From Cloeon dipterum (Eukaryota; Arthropoda; Insecta; Ephemeroptera; Baetidae): 64,000 nt of DNA. The stretch's first letter is position 1; each line of letters opens with the position of its first letter. The position numbers and the translations under genes are program-made. Location of the stretch: contig NC_088788.1 of the NCBI RefSeq assembly GCF_949628265.1, positions 30,552,335 to 30,616,334 of the forward strand, written 5' to 3'. Below are positions 7,676 to 41,707 of this stretch, one piece after another. The notes beneath the pieces were generated by a model. The model searched no databases, had not been told where the DNA came from, and worked only from the letters and a program-made list of their open reading frames with translations.

Positions 7676-8882
7676 TCACTCGTGTAGGGGAGGTGACGCG
7701 GAGGCGGGCGAGGAGGCGGCGCTGGAGGCGTCCGAGAAGCGACGCCGACGTGCGCCTACCTTGCCCATAAACGAGCGAATTTCGTCAAAGTAGGCGTCGT
7801 GGGGTGCCCGCGGGGCTCCCACCATTCCCGAGGGACCCCTTGGGTCCAGGATAGTCGGTCCATCGGCGTCGTGCTTCTTGAGGTGGCGGTCCAAATTAGT
7901 CTGCTGGCCGAAACACCTCTCGCAAAGCGGACACTTGAACGGCTTCTCCTTGTTGTGGATGTTGCGCACGTGGCGCTGCAGGTTGGACGAGATGCTGAAC
8001 GAGCGTTCGCAGTACTTGCATTTGTACGGCTGTTCACCTGTGTGCGTGCGCAAGTGCCTCGTCAGGTTGGCGGAGCGAGGAAAAACCTGGAAGCAGAATC
8101 CAAGAAAATACGTGAGCATCAGCACGTTTTGACTGTTCGTGATAAAGTCCACTAATTGGATTTGGTCGGGGTTGGAGAGTTTTGAAATAAAAGAGTAACT
8201 TACCTTTCCGCAAAATTTGCAGGCGTAGCGGTCCCTAGGCTTGGTGCCTGGCACTCCGTTAGGGGGAGGGGGCACATTGTGGTTGGCCGCTGAGGGGCTG
8301 TTATTGTTGTCCAGCACCTTGGGTTGGGGACACGGCTGAGGTGGTGGTGGCAGGAAGGGAGCGGCGTAGGGCCGGAAGCGATGTGGCTGCATTGCTTCCA
8401 GCACGATGGGGTAGAGCGCAGCCAGGGGCGGTGGCTGGGGAGGGGAAGGGGTGCGCATCACGAGGTTGCGGTTCTCATCGCGTCGTGTCTTCTTGTGTTC
8501 CATGCGCAGGTCAAGCGGCTGCTCGTCTCTTGAGTGGTCACCGCCGGCCTGCTGCGGCGGCGCCGCCGGTGGCGAAGCCGTCACCTGCCGCGACGACAGG
8601 TCAAACGGCTCGTCAACGTCGGCGGGCTCGACGCGGTGCCGCGCCGACTCGATGGGGTAGACAGCCGCCTGCTTGGGCGAACCGCCATCGGCGCGTGAGC
8701 TGTAGCGGCCGATCATTTTGCGCGGGCTCGAGTCCTTCTCGCGCATGCTCACCACAACATGGCGGCGCCCCGGCGCCGGAGGGGGGCTGGACGGCGGCTG
8801 GTGTAGGGGGGCCCGCGGGTAAAAGCAGTACCACGGCAGCGACGCCCCGACCACGCTCATCTGGAGTCCAGGCCGACCTCTG
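7676..8882 (-). CDS. ham: Hamlet / PRDM3-PRDM16-type zinc-finger factor, C-terminal exons (partial)
   Basis: This is the C-terminal part of a nuclear sequence-specific transcription factor of the Hamlet/MECOM/PRDM16 family. Hamlet controls dendrite and olfactory neuron fates in Drosophila. Two exons are seen, 8882-8204 and 8086-7676, joined across a 117-base intron (donor AAG|GTAAGT, acceptor TTCCAG|GTTTTT). The upstream exon begins at a TTTCAG acceptor with one base left in the codon, so the N-terminal part lies elsewhere. The first exon is proline-rich and carries two CtBP-binding-like motifs, EPFDLSS and QPLDLRM. Three C2H2 fingers follow (CKFCGK...[13 protein letters not shown]...[14 protein letters not shown]...HLKKH), with the spacing and linker typical of the family's second finger cluster. 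After them comes [11 protein letters not shown], a family hallmark, and then a short Arg/Ser-rich tail ending in PPLHE. The PR domain and first finger cluster were not found in this window. Confidence 0.9.
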
Positions 8883-11800
8883 CTGAAACACAAAGGCAAT
8901 TTGCAACGTTAGTTTGTGATTGTTGATCTGGAAAATCGATTTCCATGCTAAATTAGGCGTCAGTTTATTATTAGACTCATGATATCTAAATCTAAACAAT
9001 TTCCTGTTACTGGCATGAGCTCAACGAAACGGATCAACGTAATCGCAATTCTGCAATCTACGTCTCATTTTTTTTATTAATGGTACTTGGAAGACAGCAG
9101 TTTAAACAAAAAAGCGTCACTTGCTTGATTAAAAACAGTTTTGCGACTTTTCTATGCACATCGCGATCTGGTGGAGCAGGAAGCATGGCCAGTTGGCCTC
9201 GCGATTGAATGTGGGGCAGAAGACTCTTTGTCGGAATAAGGAGCGAAAGGTGTGGCCCGAATCAGATCACACAGGCATGCTCTCATCATCTGCTCGCCGC
9301 TTTCCCGTTTTTTATTGTTTTACGGCCGCCAAGCGCACCGTGTGTCAAAGTTGACTTTTGCCAGTCGGCGTTTACGACCCCGTCCATGCTGTGGGAATCT
9401 CCCAAATTAAAGAGCCCACAGACGGAGCGCTTTTTAATTTCCTTCTTAGTCGGGTATAAGGCAAGGAGAGTTACCCTGACTCGAGAGATTTATCGCGGCG
9501 AGCGGAGAACATAACGGAGGCGCACGTGACACACCATCGAGCGCGAAACAAAGCGTAATTGCCTACCGCACCAGCTGACACAACACTCTCGCGCCGAATT
9601 TTCGCGTATCGACGACACGCGCCACCGGCTTTGCTACCAACATTTTGGGTCTGAAAACCAGTTTTCGCGTGTCAATTCGGAAGCTGACCCGCGAGCTGAC
9701 CCCAGGAGGCGGAGCCTGTTTGTTTTGACGCCGCGCGTTTTACTTTCGGCGCCCACTTCGTGTGCGTGGGCGAATTAATTGCCCTTTCTCTCCTAATTGA
9801 CAGCAGCGCGAGCCGTCGGGTGTGAATAAGCTGAGTGACTTCATTGTGAAATTTCGCGTCGCTCCACCGCTCTACTTCAGTTGGGAACATTTTGGTGACC
9901 CTCCAAACCTTGCCTCGCTTTGGCATCATCTGCTGATTATTATATTTTCTTCTTAAGTGTGAGGAAAAAACGAGAGTTTAATCAACAAATCCGGTACTCA
10001 TTGAAACGTGAAATTAAAGCTCCAATATTATAAATATCAATTTCTAAATTGAGAGTAAAATTTGCTTTTAACATTAGAAATACACGGAAACTGTACTGAT
10101 GAAAGTGTTATTAAAGTTGTTAATTTAGTTTGAGATTGACTCATTTTAAATTTGTGTGGTTTATACACATTTTAATTTGTTTTAACCAATCAACGTTTTA
10201 TTTCCATGCACCAAAGGTGGTCTGCACATTTTCATCAGAGTGGAATTTGGCGGGCGGGAAGCAATTGCAGAAATACAATCCTAGCAAATCATTAAATCGT
10301 GATAAATGCACATATCTCCCTTTGTTCCACGGCGGCGAAATATGCGTAGAATGCGCAAGTCGACGCGGCTCTCATCTACAATTCGGATGAATGCATTGAG
10401 CAGTTTTGACGAACGATTGGGCGTCGATTCGCGTGCGCGTGGTAAGAATGCGGAGATGAATTCACTGCTCGCTTGGATTGTTATTACACTTCTACCTGTG
10501 TAGAGAGCAGTGGAATTAAATACGATTGACGTACGCTCGACGAAGCGCATCTCACAACAAGCAGCGTAGCCAGCAAAAATTAGAAATCGAGCAACACATG
10601 CAAACAGCCGCAGCCAGCAAAGCGGCAAATCCATAACTTTCGTCGTCGATCGAGAGAAGCAGCAAAAAATCGAATTATCGGTTCTCTGCTCTCGCTTTGC
10701 GGTTATGTCATTCGTAGTGTTGAAAGAACTCCATCCGATTGTCGCGGTCGTGATTTTCGCGCCTTTGTTTTCGGCTTGCACGTAATCGAGAGGAAAATGG
10801 GCCGACAGAGCCTTGGCTGCGAATTAATCGCCATTGTACAACCGTTTTCGCGCTGACCGAGCTTAAGAAACAATTGTGCCAAGCAAATCAAGAGCGTCTC
10901 GTCTCTTTCGGCCTCTTGCTGAATGAATCCAAGGACCAATCAATTGGCCCGCTCTCCTGTCTCTATTAATCCGGAGAAAAAGCCACTTTCGGAGAGCCAA
11001 ATTAAGTCGTCAATTATAGCCGGTTTCATTCTAAACCAGCGATTCATCGTAGAAAACCTTTAATTAGCGGAAGCGCTGATTTCCATTTGCTACTCTACCG
11101 TGGTTTAGCACTGTTATAATGTGACTATTAAGAATGGAATGATATCATTTGACTGTCAATGAGTCACTTAATTCCAACGAAACGAGCAATTATTAAACTA
11201 GCATTAAACTAGGATTACATTTTTTCTCTTATTTGAAAGTTTTAAATTAACGATTAAACCAGGATAGACATTGTACAAAAAGGATTTTTAATTAAAATCT
11301 TTTTGTAATACTTCATTTATCCATTTCATTCTACTATATGAAAACTATGATCAATTTTTGTACCTTTTCCTTTGGAGCGGTTGTAAAAGATCGCAACCCT
11401 ATATTTATATCAAAAGCGATCGTAGAAAGGCAAAAATTTCCTCTCGCAAATTATCCACTTTTAGAGCCTATAAATTGTCAGATTCCCGCGCGCAGCTAGG
11501 GTCTCTTTCACCGAATCGGAAATTGTTGTGAAACGGCAGAGTGGATAAACACTGGCCGGTTTAATTGCACTCACGGATTGGAAACGAATCGATTTGTGCA
11601 CCTGTGTGGGGCTGGGAAACGAAACGATACTCGGCGCGTTGTGATGCTCCGAATTTTATTCCTAGACTCAATCAGCTGCTGCAGTTCCTTTGCGGTAACC
11701 GTAAATGTATCAATAGCGGCTGGAAAAAACGGCGGCGTGCCTCCCGCTGGGCAGATTTTTCGCTCGTCTCTTTATTATTTTCTATTTTGAGGCCGCGGCA

Positions 11801-32862: not shown

Positions 32863-35847
32863 TCAGTACACTGGACTAACGCATTGGTCCCATGCCCTCT
32901 GCGGGCACCTGTAGGTTAGTTCGCACTGGCCTTTGCGCCCTGTGGAGGCAGCCAATGCAACCTTCTTGCTCAACACTTTGGGGATGGCCGGGTGAGTTAC
33001 TAACTGCCGCACGACTCTAAAACATGCACGAACCAAAGTAAATTCGATATCACGAGAGCTAAATTTATTACTCACATCCTGAGCACCTTCATCTCCAGGT
33101 CAGGCAGCTCGGTTGCAGGATCGTAGGCTTCACATGCAATGCGTTGCAAGCAGCCTAGGTTTTTAGGGTCAGCCAGACCTGAGCAGGTGAAAATAGACGC
33201 TAGCAAGGCTTCTCCGCCATTTGATCTTTGGGGCAGTTTATGTTGCTACTCAATTTAAAAATTGACGGTTAGAAGGAGATTATTACGTTATTGCCATGTT
33301 TGATTACCTCTTTGAGGAATTCCTGCAGAATAGCAATCTCTTGCATTCTCGACGAGCCGTTGCTCTCCTTCCTGAAAGGCGAGATTTCGTCAGCACGTGG
33401 TCCCAGATCTTCAAGAGCAGCCACGTCTTTTAAGTCGAAAGCTGGTGCCTCCCTGCGACGACGCCCTGCAACCCGCCAAACGTCTGCACAAACACCAAAT
33501 AATTTGGACCAACATGCTAGTCTTAGTAAATACAAAATTTTCCAGAAGTGCGATCTGGGAGAAGTGAAACCGATGTTTTAACTTTCCATCAAAGAATTTA
33601 AACAAGCTTTCATTGAACTGACCTGAGACAACGCCAAGCTGGAGCAGGATAGGGTTGGTGGCAAGGGCGGCAGCCGCGCCGAGCAGAGCGATTCCCGCCA
33701 GCGGCACCAGCACCCGCTTCAGGTTTTGATCCCTGGTTGGCACAAGACCATGGGGATGATGATGGGGGTGAGGATGGGGGTGCGGATGAGGATGAGGATG
33801 AATTTGTGGCTCATGTACCTCAGGGAAATGCACGTGGTGAGGGCTTCCTCCAGCAATCAGTCCCGCAGCGCCTGCTTCGTGATGAGGCAGTCCATCTGCT
33901 CTTTCAAGAATTACTTCATTCGACGTTTTAAATTTAATTTTAGAACTCACGCGACGGCAAGAACTGCGTCTCGTACTTCACGGCGGGAGCATGGCCATGA
34001 TGGGCTTGGTTTTCAGGCTGTGAGTAGTGCTCAACATTTTCAGGGGCTGCTGGGGCTTGCGCGTGCGCCACGGGCACGTACTGAATCGGCACATACTGGT
34101 AAGCAACCCCGTGTCCTTGCGGGTGGGGGTGGTGGTGACCCATCGTCGCCTCGTGGGCCCCATGAGATCCGGCGCTGCTACCAGGGATCACATGGTTTGC
34201 GTGCATCTGTAAGAAAATGAATTAGAATCAGATCATGAGAATTATTCATTATTTAGAAAGTTGATTTTCATAAACTATCAGTTATTTATGCATCACCCAT
34301 TTTTTTTAAATTACAAAATGGATTTGGAAGTTTTATTTTATAATTCTCTTTCATGATAAATTAAATCTAAAATAATTTATGTATAACACACAATGTTAAT
34401 AAATGGCAGAAAAACTAAATGCTCTACAAATATTATCAGGAGAACATTATTTCTTGAATCTAATTATCGTAGGAAATATCGTAACTAGGTAGGAGGTAAG
34501 CTTTTTTTGCTCTTTTTATCCCTGTCCTCTCGGACCGGGAAGGGCGCGCACTGCACTATCACGAATGCTGAAACCCGGGTCCCAATAACACCGCGAACGG
34601 ATAACATGGGCGCACCAGGCCGCACAGGGACCCAGCCCACTCAAGGGAACAAATAAGTTGGTTGTGTAAATGTGAACTGATCGTTAAGTATCTAAATCGA
34701 TATTGGTGCATGTTTCTTTCTGCTTTGTACAATTAAGTTTTAATTTGATTGAGGCGTAGTAGGCGCCTTGGGCATCGTTGCCGTTAATGTTTTCGCACGC
34801 AAAGGCTATTTGTTGAAACAAGGATTTGCCCTGAATATGTTTAATTGGCTGTACTCCAGTTCCGTTCTAACTCTCCTTGAACAATCAATTATTATCAGCT
34901 AAGAATAATTAGATGATTGATGAAAATGTACTTTGTGACCAAAAGTGGGCTGCCGCGATCTTGTGCTCTTATTGAAAAGTTGGAAATATACACAAAGTCC
35001 ATAGCGTTAATGAGAAAGTTGCGCGGTGAGTTAGTGGATTTTCATTTGCCGCAGCGTCATGAGGTAAATTAATGTGCCGACCGCTTTTATTTGTATCGTA
35101 CAGAGCGCGAAAGCATGAAAAGTGCTTTGCTGCTGGAGTAGAGAGACACACAGCGACTCACAGTAACGAATGAGTGCATTTGAATGAATATCACAAATCC
35201 CCTCCTCTTCATATTCAAACGCGCTGGCTGATCATCCTTACTTCTATTAGCAGAGTGCAAGATTTCGTTTTCTCTAAAATAATATCACTTATTCATAGAA
35301 TGACCTAGCTTTCCACTCATAAAATTTTAGAGCAAATTCTCATTAAATCGTCATCGCAATCTAGTTCTCAAACATTCTGCTTGCTATTCTTCATATTGGT
35401 TAATAACTTTTACTGGGGGAAGTTTGAAATAAAAAATTAGGCAGTTTGGTCTAATCAATGAATGTGGTATTCTAGCTCACAATCAGGGGTTTGCCCAAAT
35501 CAAATTAAAGAATAAAAATCGGTAAATTGAAAAGAGGAGAGTAATACCATTAAAGAAGAAGTTTTTCTGCAATTTGAACCTCCATTCCTAATTTTTTTAT
35601 TTTTCAAAGTTAAATCTATAGAGCGGAAATGCAGTTTTGAATCAACTGCTCTCACCTGGTGGTGGAGGTGCTGGTGGAGCGGCTGCGGCAGGTGAACATG
35701 CTGCAGACGGACATGTTCCTCAGGGAACTGCAGCTGAGCCACCCTGGGCTCGTTCCCTGTTGACTGGGGCTCCTTGTCCTTCTTCTGCACCACCACGGAG
35801 GTGGCGCCGGCAACCACGCACAGCACAACAAACGACCGCGTCCACAT
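32863..35847 (-). CDS. Histidine-rich secretory/membrane protein with a six-cysteine C-terminal region
   Basis: Six exons: 35847-35656, 34206-33951, 33898-33623, 33483-33308, 33245-33076 and 33016-32863. All junctions are GT-AG and in phase, giving 407 residues. Residues 1-20 look like a signal peptide (MWTRSFVVLCVVAGATSVVV). The region to about 200 is rich in His, Pro and Gln and includes a run of alternating His-Pro at 183-199. A hydrophobic segment covers about 209-230. A tetra-arginine at 249-252 resembles a furin-type site. The last part has six cysteines (321, 332, 338, 388, 394, 402), suggesting three disulfides. I do not recognise the family; the C-terminal Cys pattern suggests an arthropod-specific extracellular domain. 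Metal binding by the His runs is possible but only inferred. Intron 2 is just 52 bases and its exact acceptor (33899) was chosen to keep frame. Confidence 0.82.
34500..34650. other. GC-rich insert in intron 1 of the His-rich gene
   Basis: About 150 bases of GC-rich sequence sit abruptly inside an AT-rich 1.45 kb intron. The segment has no open reading frame of note and no clear polymerase III boxes. A short interspersed element or a retroelement fragment is possible. A regulatory island is the alternative. Confidence 0.3.
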
Positions 35848-37100
35848 GTCGCGGTGAAATGACTACTGTTGCCACCACGCGAGCCTCTTTATTTGATGCC
35901 TCTTCCTTCCTCTCTTCGCTCTGGAGACGCACGCGAGATGAGCATCTCCTCCGCATCCTACCACCTCAATTGCTTAACGCCACATAGCCTGTGCAATGCC
36001 CTCGAATCGGAAATGAGGATTAAGCTTTTTTCTTTTAGCATGCGCCTTTTCCACTTTTTTTAATGTTGATATCAGTGAAATAAATAAATATAAACACAAA
36101 GTTAAATATTTGAGTCTCAATAAAGTATGGACAAAATCTTTTTCGGTTTCTTGGAAGCATGCATTCTAAAATGTTTTTACACATTCCATTCATTGCCGTA
36201 TATTGTAAAAGTTGAGATAAATCGTAATATGAACAAATTAGTAGGTTTGATCAAAAACAACAATACCTTGCAACAATTTCACCCTCAAGATTCTCATCGC
36301 TTGTGGAAAAAATTGAATTCTTAAATTGTATTTTCCTTTCGATTTCAGTTTGTTTATCAAATTTATTTGTCACATTTTAAGATTAAATCGAGGAGCATTT
36401 TTAGCATATTTGCACTTTCAACGCAGTAAGTATTCCGCTATGCTTTATTTTGACAAAAATTCACGGAAGTTGGCCGGCCCGCTCACTGCGATTGTTCTGT
36501 GGATTGACGAGCGATGTTTTGGGAAGAGGCACTCGCGTTTGTCTTATTGTTTGCGTGACCGATGAGCACGCTGCACATTTCTTGACACTTTCCCTTATTG
36601 TCGCGCAACGCACAATGAGCAGACATAGTTAACGGGACGCGACACGCACGCGACTTTGTCGCTTCGCCTCCCTCACAACTTCACATCTTGCGCAATCCGC
36701 TTGAGTAATTAATTTCCTCGTGCAGAGGTAATCTTAATCAGCGCAAGTTATTTTGCAAAGAGAATGTAATGAGAGGGGAGGTCATTAAACTTTCAAAAAT
36801 TTTGGTTCAATTTTTTATCTGACTAATTTCCAAATCTAGATTTCGTCACGCTTCTATGAAAATGGTATTCACAAATGTACCGACTTATACTCATTTGTAC
36901 ATGCAACAGTCCCTAAACAATGCACAAATGGTTAAAAAATTCAACTGTGCGCTAAGTTATATTTTGCACATGTGTATTTTTATCACTTAAACTTCATTTA
37001 AGTTTTGTGCATCTTCAAGCCAAAATAAAACATTATACAGTTACGACCTTAATTCTAAACAATGTCTTTTTAAAATACATATATTACTGATTGATAGATT
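35657..37100. other. Spacer between the His-rich and SIAE-like genes
   Basis: The last bases before 35656 and the region 35848-37100 contain no supported gene. The 36450-36720 part is GC-richer and could include promoter elements of the His-rich gene, which starts at 35847. Short plus-strand open frames here have no recognisable domain. Confidence 0.5.
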
Positions 37101-37106
37101 TTTATT
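37101..37106 (-). terminator. Candidate polyadenylation signal of the SIAE-like gene
   Basis: AATAAA on the minus strand about 115 bases beyond the stop codon at 37220. Confidence 0.5.
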
Positions 37107-37219
37107 TTTCAATATTATCATGTTCAACAAACACAAATGTATATGAGTGATAAATATAATTTCTGAAAATAAATGTCTTTTTAAAATAAAATTTTTAGAA
37201 CAAAAATAGATTTGTAATT

Positions 37220-39803
37220 TTAATTTGCTGAATTTGAAATAATTACGTAAACTGTGGTTATTAAGAGGATGAATTGATGAGAATCGAGCGCCATTGTAGT
37301 GCGAGGGGAAGACGATGGCAAGGGAAGCACCCAGGGATAAAGTGGAAGACCATTAGAATCGTAGACAGCGCATTGCAGGTGCAAGCAGGGAGTAGTATGA
37401 ATGGCATAACCAACAACTTTCGCTTCAATGGGTGGTGGCTCCAAGAGCACTCTCCTCCCTTCACCCCCAACAACTACAGCCTCAGTCCAGTTTCCGTCAT
37501 CCAAACTTGTTGCATACTGAAGATAGCACATGCACAGCTTAAATAAGATCTTAAATGTTTCTACCACTTCAAAATACCGCAAAACCGTGGGATCCGTTAA
37601 GTTTAATATCACCGGAAAACTCCAGGATTATTTGTGCCTTGTCTGCTTTCGAGATTTCCATCTGTAAAACAATTTTTCAAATAAATTTCATCGTTTATTT
37701 AACCACTGATTGGAATTCCCTCAAATCGTTAATTTTAAAAAATGATTTAATCTTAAAATGTTTTTTTAAGAGTCCCTAAAGAATTGAAAATATATTATTT
37801 GAATTTTTTTCCAACTATCTATCATACGAATTAAACGTCGTTTTTATTGGACCTGATTGATTGAAACAGTTTTTACCCTGAGATTGGTGGAATTTTCGTC
37901 AGAGAAAACAACTTCTTTGGCCGAGGTGAAGAGTCTGTGCGCTACAACCCTCTTTGCTTGAAACATTTTCCTGAAATTAGATCAATTCATAAAAAAAAAG
38001 ATTGAAATGAAAAATTACATAAAGGCCTTCTTACGTAAACATGTCTTTGGTTGAGGAAATGTTATCAACCAAGTCAAACGTAGCCGCCGTAAAAATCTTG
38101 TACATTGCCGTTTTAGGGTAGAGGGGATCGGCGAGTTCCATCTGAAAAATTCGCACGGGCGCCATTCCTTCAGCTACAGCGACGCTCGAGTCAGGTCCCA
38201 ACTAAAACGAGAGCAACCTTTGTAGCTTGAATGTGGAGCGGGTTGCATAAACACCTGCACGAGACCGATTGGAAGATCTCCGGCAGTGGAATCTGCGAAG
38301 TTGGCGCGCCAGTGATCAAAGAGACCGCGCGTGGCACAATGGAATTCGCTTCGATTCATTGCGTCACTGCCGCTAATGCTGTCACCTGAGCTTTCATTTT
38401 CAGAATTTTAATTATGCTATTCATATTAGGGGCACGTATCACTAGAGATTTTTTCAATTAGCAATAAAATACCCTCAGCTATAACGAGCTCTATATTCAA
38501 TCTGCTTTTCTCCACCATTTTAACAAAGCAGGTAAATTTATAATTGTTAAAATCTGACCTTATTTACAAGGATGTCAAATATGGTAATAAATACTATATT
38601 TTTATAAATTTCTAGTTTTGTCATTCTAAATTATCTGGTTGAGTAAAATTGTCATTTAAAAAAATCTACGAGTAATTTAATCGCTAGGTTTAAAAAATCT
38701 CGATGGCCAATAGTTTGAAATCCAAATGAGTTCTTTACCGTGGTCCCAAAGGACTCCTCGCACAGTAAATTTACTCAGAGGATGCATAATAGCGTTGTGA
38801 ATTCCAGAAGAAGGGTGAGTGTTCCTAAAAAATATCCAAGAAAAATTCATATTCAGATAACAATGAGTATCTCGTACTCTGCTTCCCGAGTTTGACATTC
38901 TTCAATGACTTGTTTCGGCATCCACGACTGCAGGCTGGTACCCGTCCACGCGAACTCGATTAAGCCGATGGGCCTCGCGGGAAAATAATTCGATAGCATT
39001 TGTCCAAAGAAAAGACACTCAGCAGAATACCACTCAAGCACACCTAACCTTGGCCAGGATAAAATATTCTCAATAGAAACGCAAGTAGTCCGCATTCGAA
39101 CCAACCTTCATAGAGTACTGTCCATTGCTGCTCAATGTTGGGACCAATTTCAGGCACCTCCTCGGTAGCTTCTCCACGACCAACGTGGAACAAACGCATT
39201 CCATAGTATGTGCTAGCAATGTTGACCTCTTCTTCAAAATTATCGAGCTGGCAAATTCAATTCCCCATCATTTAGTCAAAAGTTTTCTTCGAAATTCCTG
39301 TTCTCACACTTCCCATGAAGAACTCCATGTTCCCTTCGCCCAGGCAGAGCCAGACGTCACCAAAAAGCACTCCAGCCACGTTAACTTTGGTGAGCGGTCC
39401 TCCAGAAAGCTCTTGATGCTCGAAGTGCAGAATGTGGGGCCCCCCGGCCTCCTGCGCTGGCAACCACAGCTCCCAAATTTCACTCTCTTCTTCAAATTAA
39501 TTAATTGTTAAGTATTTTTTTTTCAATGATTTACCCTGGACGGTGGTGTTTTCGCTGATTTGGTCAAAGGTGAGCGTGACTAGCGCGTCCGGCACACCGT
39601 ATCCCCAGAGGTGTGCCCTTTTCGGAGCCATCTGCAGGACCATCTGGGCGCCGTAGCCTCGAGCCAAGCGAAATGGAGCACTCGAGACTTTTAAAATCAC
39701 TCAAAACCATCTCATAACAACTAAATATAATATTGGAATGTTTTATACCTTCTAAAATGAAGAACACAAATTGGACATACCCGCAAAGTAATAATTTTTT
39801 CAT
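37220..39803 (-). CDS. SIAE: Sialate O-acetylesterase-like protein, probably catalytically inactive
   Basis: Eleven exons: 39803-39749, 39687-39535, 39486-39308, 39247-39106, 39043-38878, 38824-38739, 38385-38255, 38201-38035, 37970-37877, 37661-37578 and 37516-37220. Phases agree throughout, giving 517 residues, close to the animal enzyme's length. Active SIAE removes O-acetyl groups from sialic acids in lysosomal or secreted compartments. An N-terminal signal peptide (MKKLLLCGYVQFVFFILEG) is present. Family blocks appear in order: MVLQ...WGYG, IWELWLPAQEAGGP, VLFGDVWLC, PIGLIEFAWTGT, NAIMHPL...GVLW, PIGLVQ, RVVAHRL and WTEAVVV...VGYAIHTTPC. The nucleophile motif GQSN is GEGN (serine replaced by Gly121). 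The HPRDK block carrying catalytic His/Asp aligns with MFQAK (362-366). The WYQGES block reads WDHGDS. The reading frame is intact and the introns are normal, so this looks like a maintained pseudoenzyme rather than a pseudogene. The C-terminus ends in a hydrophobic stretch. Confidence 0.88.
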
Positions 39804-41707
39804 GATTATGCGTGCGGTTCCAAAAAATAAATCGTGTTCAGATTATATTTCAAGTGGTTTTGGAATTTCAAGTGCGTCATCTGATTAGCTGCCGTGATAT
39901 TGAATGATGGATAAGATGTATAGAACGAGATCATAGTCAGCAACATGAGAGGCTTGAGACTGTGTGGGTTTTGAGGATACTATATTATAGCTCATTATAA
40001 TTTTGTTATTATATATAGTCTCTTTAATTGATGAATCGAACATGCGACAAAACAATGAGAAAAGTTACATAAGCATGTTGATATTCCATTCTCCTCCTTG
40101 TTATCTCTATTTCAAATTTACTATTTTCATTGGTTTGTCGAGTATGCGATTAAGCGCACACGGTGAAAATGCGTAAATGTAGTTTAATGTAATTAAGTAT
40201 CTCACATTAAACATGATAATATTTGATTAATATGAATTTTTGAGTTTACCTGTTGTTATATTAAACTGTTTATTGTTATTAACAGAAATTTAAAAACATC
40301 TCAATATATTTAATTGTTCGTCAAGGGTTTCCATTTCATTCACAAAATTATATTTCCAATATTATTATAGTTCCTAAATTACAGTTCAGTTGCTACTGTT
40401 GTTACTTGTATGTTATTTTGTGGGTTTGACCATCTAGAATACAAGAACACTAATTAGTCCTTGCTATCTATCTTGACGAAGAATATGATTTTCCAACGAA
40501 ATGGATTTCACACTAGCAGATCGAGATTACTAGAAAATAAGGCAAGTCCATTGTACCATATTTAAATGCCTAAACTGTGTTTGCTCAATGCTAATGTCTG
40601 TCGTGAATAAGAGTCTGATTATATTACACAAACTAATATACTAACTGAAATTTACGATAACTTGGATTAAGCTAAAATTATGACGAAAAATGCAATCGAT
40701 TTAAATACATACCCATGCTCACTGATTTTCAATTATGCAAGATGCTTTACTTTCGTGATCTGCAGGTTGCATATTCGCAAGCTCATGGTTTCTCAACTAA
40801 TAATATTTTCAAGCATTGCAAGGCAGTTTAGTTCTAGAAAGATACCACTCTCAAGGCTTTACTTAGCTACAAGAACACTGATTTTTTTAAACGGGGTTCT
40901 TCATAAATGCTTTGTTGGGTTCTAATGATTATTTTTTATTTTTACTACTGGCGAAATCTTTATTTTAGCGACTCCTTCAGATCGTTCATAGTGCATTAAA
41001 ACAAGGAGAAAAATGGTATTTTCACAGCCGTCAGCCCGGCCATCCATTGCGGCAAAAGCATTATTTTGATATGCTTAAAGTAGAAAAATATGTTTTCGAA
41101 AAATTGAAAGAATAATTGTGCAAAGAAAAAAGAGGAAAATTTTAAAAAGAAAAAAGTCGTTTATATTTGATGCTGATCACCAGTTTCAAAGTGATAATCG
41201 CTTTCACAGCATCTTGGAAAATCTGGAGAATTTCTCCAAATGTTAATTTGTTCGTGTCTCCCGCTATCAGGAGCTGTATCACAAATTAAAACCTGCATTT
41301 TACACGCGATAAAAAACAATGGGTCATTAGTTTTGAAGTGTTGATGAGCGCATCCTTTGTTCTCGCGGATAATATTAGTTGGCATTCTCTCATTAAAGGC
41401 CTGAACTGTTTTTTTATTGTCTTTCACTGTATGCTGTGTCTACCAAAGATGCGTTCAAAGGTGCGAATTTGCGGTCTGTACCCTGTCTGCCGTTACAGCT
41501 CCCTTGACACGAATTAATAAATATGTAGAATCGTCAGTGTCAGAGCAAAGTGGCAACATGCCGTGTCACATGCAATTTAACACGAAACGCAAAAATAAGT
41601 CAACAGAAGTGTTGGTTACATGAAATCAGAGACAAAATCAGATTAAATCAAGAGTAAGCCGCGACGTTCCCATTGTGTCTTCTTAGTTTCTCTTCGTGGT
41701 CGCAGCG

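Follow-up and report, generated by a model that had tools for sequence, protein, structure and literature searches.

A SIAE-like gene was found in the window, i.e. the whole 64,000-nucleotide stretch of Cloeon dipterum DNA that was analysed, and its product is quite probably a pseudoenzyme of the animal SIAE (CE20) family that is secreted, goes back to an old duplication and may serve as a non-hydrolysing binding protein. The gene joins lost catalytic residues to an intact frame and to retained structural residues: the residues of an active sialate O-acetylesterase, namely the Ser and the Gln of GQSN and the His of the IHP block, are all three missing from the protein. An earlier note on this DNA had proposed a secreted SIAE homologue lacking the esterase residues, and this picture was upheld, since the spliced frame is intact, the N-terminus is hydrophobic and Ser, Gln and His are gone. 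The features are collected in Table 1.

Table 1. Features of the SIAE-like gene (positions in the window) and related loci elsewhere in the genome (positions prefixed C1 to C4).
Feature	Position	Strand	Remarks
SIAE-like window gene	37220..39803	-	11 exons, 518 aa; splice model and homology to 8f9o
Exons 1-6	39803-39749, 39687-39535, 39489-39308, 39247-39106, 39043-38878, 38824-38739	-	
Exons 7-11	38385-38255, 38201-38035, 37970-37877, 37661-37578, 37516-37220	-	
Putative signal peptide, residues 1 to ~22	39677..39803	-	split by intron 1; hydrophobic N-terminus; putative cleavage site
Block I, GQSN to GEGN (Gly120-Glu121-Gly122-Asn123)	39329..39340	-	oxyanion Gln and nucleophile Ser lost
WYQGES to WDHGDS, first part	38739..38748	-	split by intron 6
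WYQGES to WDHGDS, second part	38378..38385	-	
Block V, IHPRDK to KMFQAK	37952..37969	-	Met363 at the place of the catalytic His; aligned via phase-2 intron 8
Hydrophobic C-terminal tail, residues 502-516	37229..37273	-	without counterpart in the five paralogues
Paralogue A	C4:28408533-28411706 (28.41 Mb)		487 aa; GQSN, WYQGS, IHFRDK; keeps Ser and His
Paralogue B	C4:20621025-20624168 (20.622 Mb)		near E; canonical-type site, WYQGENN; frame change
Paralogue C	C1:8.89 Mb		483 aa; GQSN, WLQGEQN, IHPRDK; keeps Ser and His
Paralogue D	C3:14307600-14310500 (14.31 Mb)	-	498 aa, intact; GEGN, WHQGESN, VYFRDK; His to Tyr
Paralogue E	C4:20613700-20616900		483 aa, intact; GQSNMEMT, WYQGESN, IHPRDK (canonical)
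NeuB family match	C1:29.29 Mb		E=1.2e-18
CMP-sialic acid synthetase cytidylyltransferase family match	C3:11.08 Mb		weak; 24.6 bits, cut-off 22.6
GT29 sialyltransferase family match	C2:14.90 Mb		E=4.4e-9
CASD1-type Cas1_AcylT family match	C3:4.51 Mb		E=4.8e-47

The exons, their phases and the stop codon were rebuilt from the sequence. All 10 introns are of the GT-AG type and 518 residues are followed by a stop; the phase-consistent, intact frame of eleven exons described earlier was recovered, its length being 518 and not 517 residues. The G+C content was about 0.49 in the exons vs. 0.28 in the introns. In a search of solved structures the best match was the mammalian SIAE structure 8f9o, which covers residues 24-483 (E=2.3e-46), and the homology is far above chance level. 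The Pfam family SASA (PF03629) was matched with 26.4 bits (cut-off 24.8), and NCBIfam returned only matches far below their cut-offs. Judged by homology over the SGNH core and the C-terminal region, the protein is a member of the eukaryotic SIAE/CE20 family. Its hydrophobic N-terminus directly precedes the first SIAE-homologous residue, an arrangement found also in the five paralogues, and the protein is probably routed into the secretory pathway. The hydrophobic C-terminal tail may anchor it, either in a membrane or through GPI. All six cysteines common to 8/8 animal rows (the window protein is one of these rows) are present, and they are the only Cys of the mature protein.

The changes in the active-site blocks were read as follows. 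GQSNM has become GEGNM, so that Glu121 stands for the oxyanion Gln and Gly122 for the nucleophile Ser; the Ser to Gly exchange had been recognised before, under the number Gly121, which has to be corrected to Gly122. The change of WYQGES to WDHGDS, also reported earlier, was read at residues 259-264, and KMFQAK occupies residues 362-367. The alignment of the His block is ambiguous from sequence alone, as MAFFT sets Phe360 against the catalytic His. In 5/5 paralogues a phase-2 intron lies just before this block, three columns off in the MAFFT alignment. Its phase and order suggest that it is the same intron in the window gene; in that case the His corresponds to Met363 and the Pro to Phe364. 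The earlier note had paired HPRDK with MFQAK. Paralogues A and D also have Phe at the Pro position. Under either alignment (Met363 or Phe360) the catalytic His is absent; the nearest His lies in VAHRL, where the relatives carry Arg, Asp, Thr or Tyr. The oxyanion-hole Gly is kept as Gly212, mapped via the alignment from Gly199 of Fl8CE20_II.

It is very improbable that a wrong exon choice or sequencing errors lie behind the altered motifs. Only one assembly was used, and paralogue B shows a frame change at a nine-A run in the exon carrying WYQGEN, so small assembly errors are possible; the change in B may itself be an assembly error or real. However, GEGN sits inside an exon of the window gene, many changes spread over separate exons would be required, and paralogue D has GEGN at a different locus. 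When the three minus-strand frames of 36900-40100 were scanned, neither GQ(S/A/T)N nor WYQG was found, and HP(R/K/L/T/D/N) gave 3 matches only: NAIMHPL, which is not catalytic, and, close to the 3' end, two HPL that are out of frame. An alternative exon restoring the Ser or the His, which would have contradicted the previous reading, was thus not found in these frames.

The weight of the single residues was judged from what is described for active enzymes. In an excerpt of PMC12313940, mammalian SIAE is described as having a Ser-His dyad, the His being held by the main-chain carbonyl of a Phe, and the CE20 oxyanion hole as consisting of the Gln of GQSNM and the main chain of a Gly. Human SIAE becomes inactive if S127, T132 or H377 is changed, according to an excerpt of PMC8319020. 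Since the animal enzyme is a Ser-His dyad and S127, T132 and H377 are the residues needed in human SIAE, these blocks contain no catalytic Asp; the earlier statement that they carry the Ser, His and Asp of the esterase stands for the Ser and the His only. It is barely conceivable that the window protein is still a SIAE which performs the same reaction via other residues. The family sequence and the secretion signal are retained, and CE20 and other SGNH enzymes differ in the third member of the triad (excerpt of PMC12313940), but the places of human S127, T132 and H377 are occupied by Gly, Phe and Met (or Phe), changes of the positions at which the human enzyme is inactivated. The T132 place is in itself weak evidence: we rejected T132 as a family marker, as T occurs in 10/82 reference rows (best 80 of 117 prokaryotic relatives and 2 mammalian) and the paralogues vary there (Arg in A, Ser in C, Pro in D). 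As the bacterial rows vary there too, weight was given to Ser, Gln and His only.

The reference set of 82 rows comprised the best 80 of 117 prokaryotic relatives and the mammalian 8f9o and 8f9q. Peptides of the MVLQ and VLFGDVW types served as seeds of its scan, and because these lie outside the active site the residue counts were not forced. In these rows (best 80 of 117 prokaryotic and two mammalian) both the nucleophile Ser and the oxyanion Gln occurred in 82/82 and the catalytic His in 81/82, the sole miss being the truncated row L056; in WYQGE, Y was counted 81, Q 81 and E 78 times. Changes in the latter motif alone are no proof of inactivity, as paralogues A and C, which differ there, retain Ser and His.

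Positions inside and outside the active site were compared at 52 columns whose conservation reached 93% or more among 81 reference rows (from the best 80 of 117 prokaryotic and two mammalian, with L056 dropped). In the three active-site blocks, which were those the earlier note pointed at, the window protein kept 5/12 of these columns vs. 33/40 elsewhere (Fisher p=0.0095). In a first version (82 rows, 49 columns) the losses were 7/12 in the active site vs. 5/37 elsewhere (p=0.004). For D the values were 7/12 and 31/40 (p=0.17, not significant), and for the other paralogues 11/12 and 32/40 (C), 10/12 and 33/40 (A), 12/12 and 35/40 (B) and 12/12 and 34/40 (E). Outside the active site the window protein is thus as well conserved as the active-type paralogues (33/40 vs. 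32-35/40), whereas these keep 10-12/12 inside it.

In order to be a pseudogene the window gene should have lost its function recently and be drifting, its frame still being open for want of time. This we consider unlikely. The terminal branch is long and an open frame by itself would fit a very recent loss, but a minimum of three nucleotide changes leads from His to Met and two from Ser to Gly (GGG), and in 19 codons (57 nt), chosen for lying in the active-site blocks, at least 18 nucleotide changes separate the gene from the active motif, which is not recent on a neutral clock. Some of these changes may predate the loss, as WYQGE differs in A and C too. When the CDS of E was subjected to a neutral simulation limited to substitutions, 24, 4, 1 and 0 of 300 frames remained open at 0.05, 0.1, 0.2 and 0.3 substitutions/site, respectively, so that at 0.1-0.3 nearly all neutral frames were closed; with the window CDS, also simulated free of indels, the median was 11 substitutions before the first frame break. 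The retained splice sites, hydrophobic N-terminus and six cysteines likewise speak against a pseudogene. dN/dS was not usable since the synonymous sites are saturated (pS 0.74-0.83 for pairs with the window gene); of the 10 pairs among five CDS (B was excluded for its frame change), 8 had an infinite dS and the other two values of 2.4 and 3.6. Support for purifying selection after the loss is indirect and comes from the conserved columns, the codon changes and the neutral simulation.

Protein searches with the window protein and with D revealed at least six SIAE loci, the window gene included, in the 190 Mb genome of 10 contigs. The search with D gave at least 36 matches, all within the six loci; that with the window protein gave one further very weak match (E=4.4), which was left aside. 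The gene models of A-E were built from homology and splice rules. No further SIAE copy was detected elsewhere within the window below E=1.5, nor any tandem copy in 200 kb of flanks, where one match with the dog query (E=0.53) was at chance level. No relative was found when viral contigs were scanned with the aligned window protein, D, E and C. The activity of A may be altered, given its WYQGS and IHFRDK. In A the intron between FPFGIFQ and NGPAERG (1711-2137 of the stretch C4:28408533-28411706) contains three nested inverted repeats with arms of 66, 54 and 67 nt that are 86-91% complementary, perhaps a small transposon or foldback element. On the minus strand of the window lie also a C2H2 zinc-finger open frame (7679-8908, Pfam), which by eye we take to be of a MECOM/hamlet-like type, and two open frames (33414-33977 and 35500-35862) with many His and Pro or Gln residues, for both of which Pfam gave no match; the start of the second looks signal-like.

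In the tree the genome's six genes fall into a single clade (100/99), within which A, B, C and E group together at 86/96. The window gene and D are sisters in the best tree with weak support (64/59), on branches of 2.34, which is very long, and 1.24, respectively; an earlier tree that lacked C, D and E placed the window gene with A and B at 98/96, again on a long branch. The length of the window branch is also compatible with relaxed constraint. All 10 introns of the window gene have a counterpart of equal phase, no more than 4 alignment columns away, in at least one paralogue: eight of them in all five paralogues, one in A, B and E, and one in C and D; one intron common to the five paralogues (columns 104-107) is missing from the window gene. 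E and B have the intron places and phases, the six cysteines and the hydrophobic N-terminus in common with the window gene, to whose protein they are 30.7% (E) and 29.9% (B) identical, but they carry GQSN, WYQGE and IHPRDK.

Among the six loci two intact genes lack Ser, Gln and His, and one of them is the window gene. The other, D, had not been foreseen in the earlier note; it resembles the window gene in its GEGN, the lack of the catalytic His, the intact frame and the intron at WxxG|(E/D)S, which C also has, and differs in the exchange of His to Tyr and in keeping WHQGESN and RDK, the two proteins being 30.0% identical. There is a small chance that the two genes form a distinct GEGN subfamily of secreted pseudoenzymes, with the active site rebuilt as a ligand or metal site (Glu121, Asp260, His261 and Asp263 in the window protein), acting as receptor or regulator of O-acetylated glycans in an animal whose genome would provide for sialic acid synthesis. 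Somewhat less probably, the same four residues could form an acid-base or metal site that is catalytic in a new way on another substrate. Three of the four are acids or His at places occupied in SIAE by Gln, Tyr and Gln, within conserved active-site blocks, and the oxyanion Gly212 is retained; the cluster is, however, not common to the other GEGN gene, as D reads WHQGES.

Our preferred reading remains that of a secreted binding protein. In an old duplicate of an active SIAE the signal peptide, the core sequence and the six cysteines would have been preserved, and selection on the Ser-His esterase machinery would have ceased. Its product should be unable to hydrolyse O-acetyl esters via SIAE chemistry, and it would bind without hydrolysis, either extracellularly or within the secretory pathway. 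The ligand could be a glycan held in the remodelled pocket, or the window protein could regulate an active paralogue; binding of either kind appears the most likely mechanism. Two acidic residues were gained in the former active-site blocks (Glu121 and Asp260) and Asp263 stands for Glu; the added acids would speak mildly against binding of an anionic sugar. The earlier note had found such a protein notable because insects make very little sialic acid. That remark lends weaker support than it seemed, since the families of NeuB, CMP-sialic acid synthetase, GT29 and CASD1 type all have matches in the genome. At the level of family matches the sialylation pathway appears to be encoded in this genome, and it is plausible that the animal has O-acetylated sialic acid.

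The closest known systems are the mammalian SIAE structures 8f9o, named as dog SIAE in an excerpt of PMC12313940, 8f9q and 8f9r, which are CE20 members without ancillary domain. The window protein covers the same span, with 30.0% identity to 8f9o over 446 aligned columns, and has in common with mammalian SIAE the six cysteines, VLFGDVWLC, PIGLI and the HPL block. It differs in that the Ser, the oxyanion Gln, the T132 equivalent and the His are all replaced, in its hydrophobic C-terminal tail, and in three additional residues both after WDHGDS and before the His block. Bacterial CE20 esterases (Fl8CE20_II 9h4u, XacXaeA 7kmm, 9ega) are matched in parts of the core; their ancillary domain insertion is absent from the window protein, as is the water-mediated Ser-His-Asp site given in an excerpt of PMC12313940. 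Dead members occur in the GDSL/SGNH superfamily: 3/116 Arabidopsis GDSL sequences were called dead, one of them with a new cellular function (excerpt of PMC4757993), and dead members are also mentioned in an excerpt of PMC10779480. These plant proteins resemble the window gene in that they belong to the SGNH superfamily, have lost catalytic residues and are retained in the genome, but GDSL lipases are another branch, not SIAE/CE20. Among animals, neuroligin-type cholinesterase relatives and the insect chitinase-like IDGFs are binding proteins on dead hydrolase folds. Like the window protein they are secreted or surface proteins with an inactivated hydrolase fold beside active paralogues; their folds and ligands differ, and the likeness is an analogy only. 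In a literature search limited to open-licence papers no inactive member of the SIAE/CE20 branch was found, and CE20 occurs 0 times in the main text of the arthropod CAZyme paper PMC11543626. Dead members being already known in the wider superfamily (plants), only the SIAE branch may be new.

If the proposal is true, the SIAE branch would join the hydrolase families which are reused without catalysis. Automatic annotation pipelines would probably label both dead genes sialate O-acetylesterase, which calls for caution. Sialic-acid editing in this animal would then be the task of a family of six genes, some of active type and some inactive, and this would offer a direct handle on what the system recognises.
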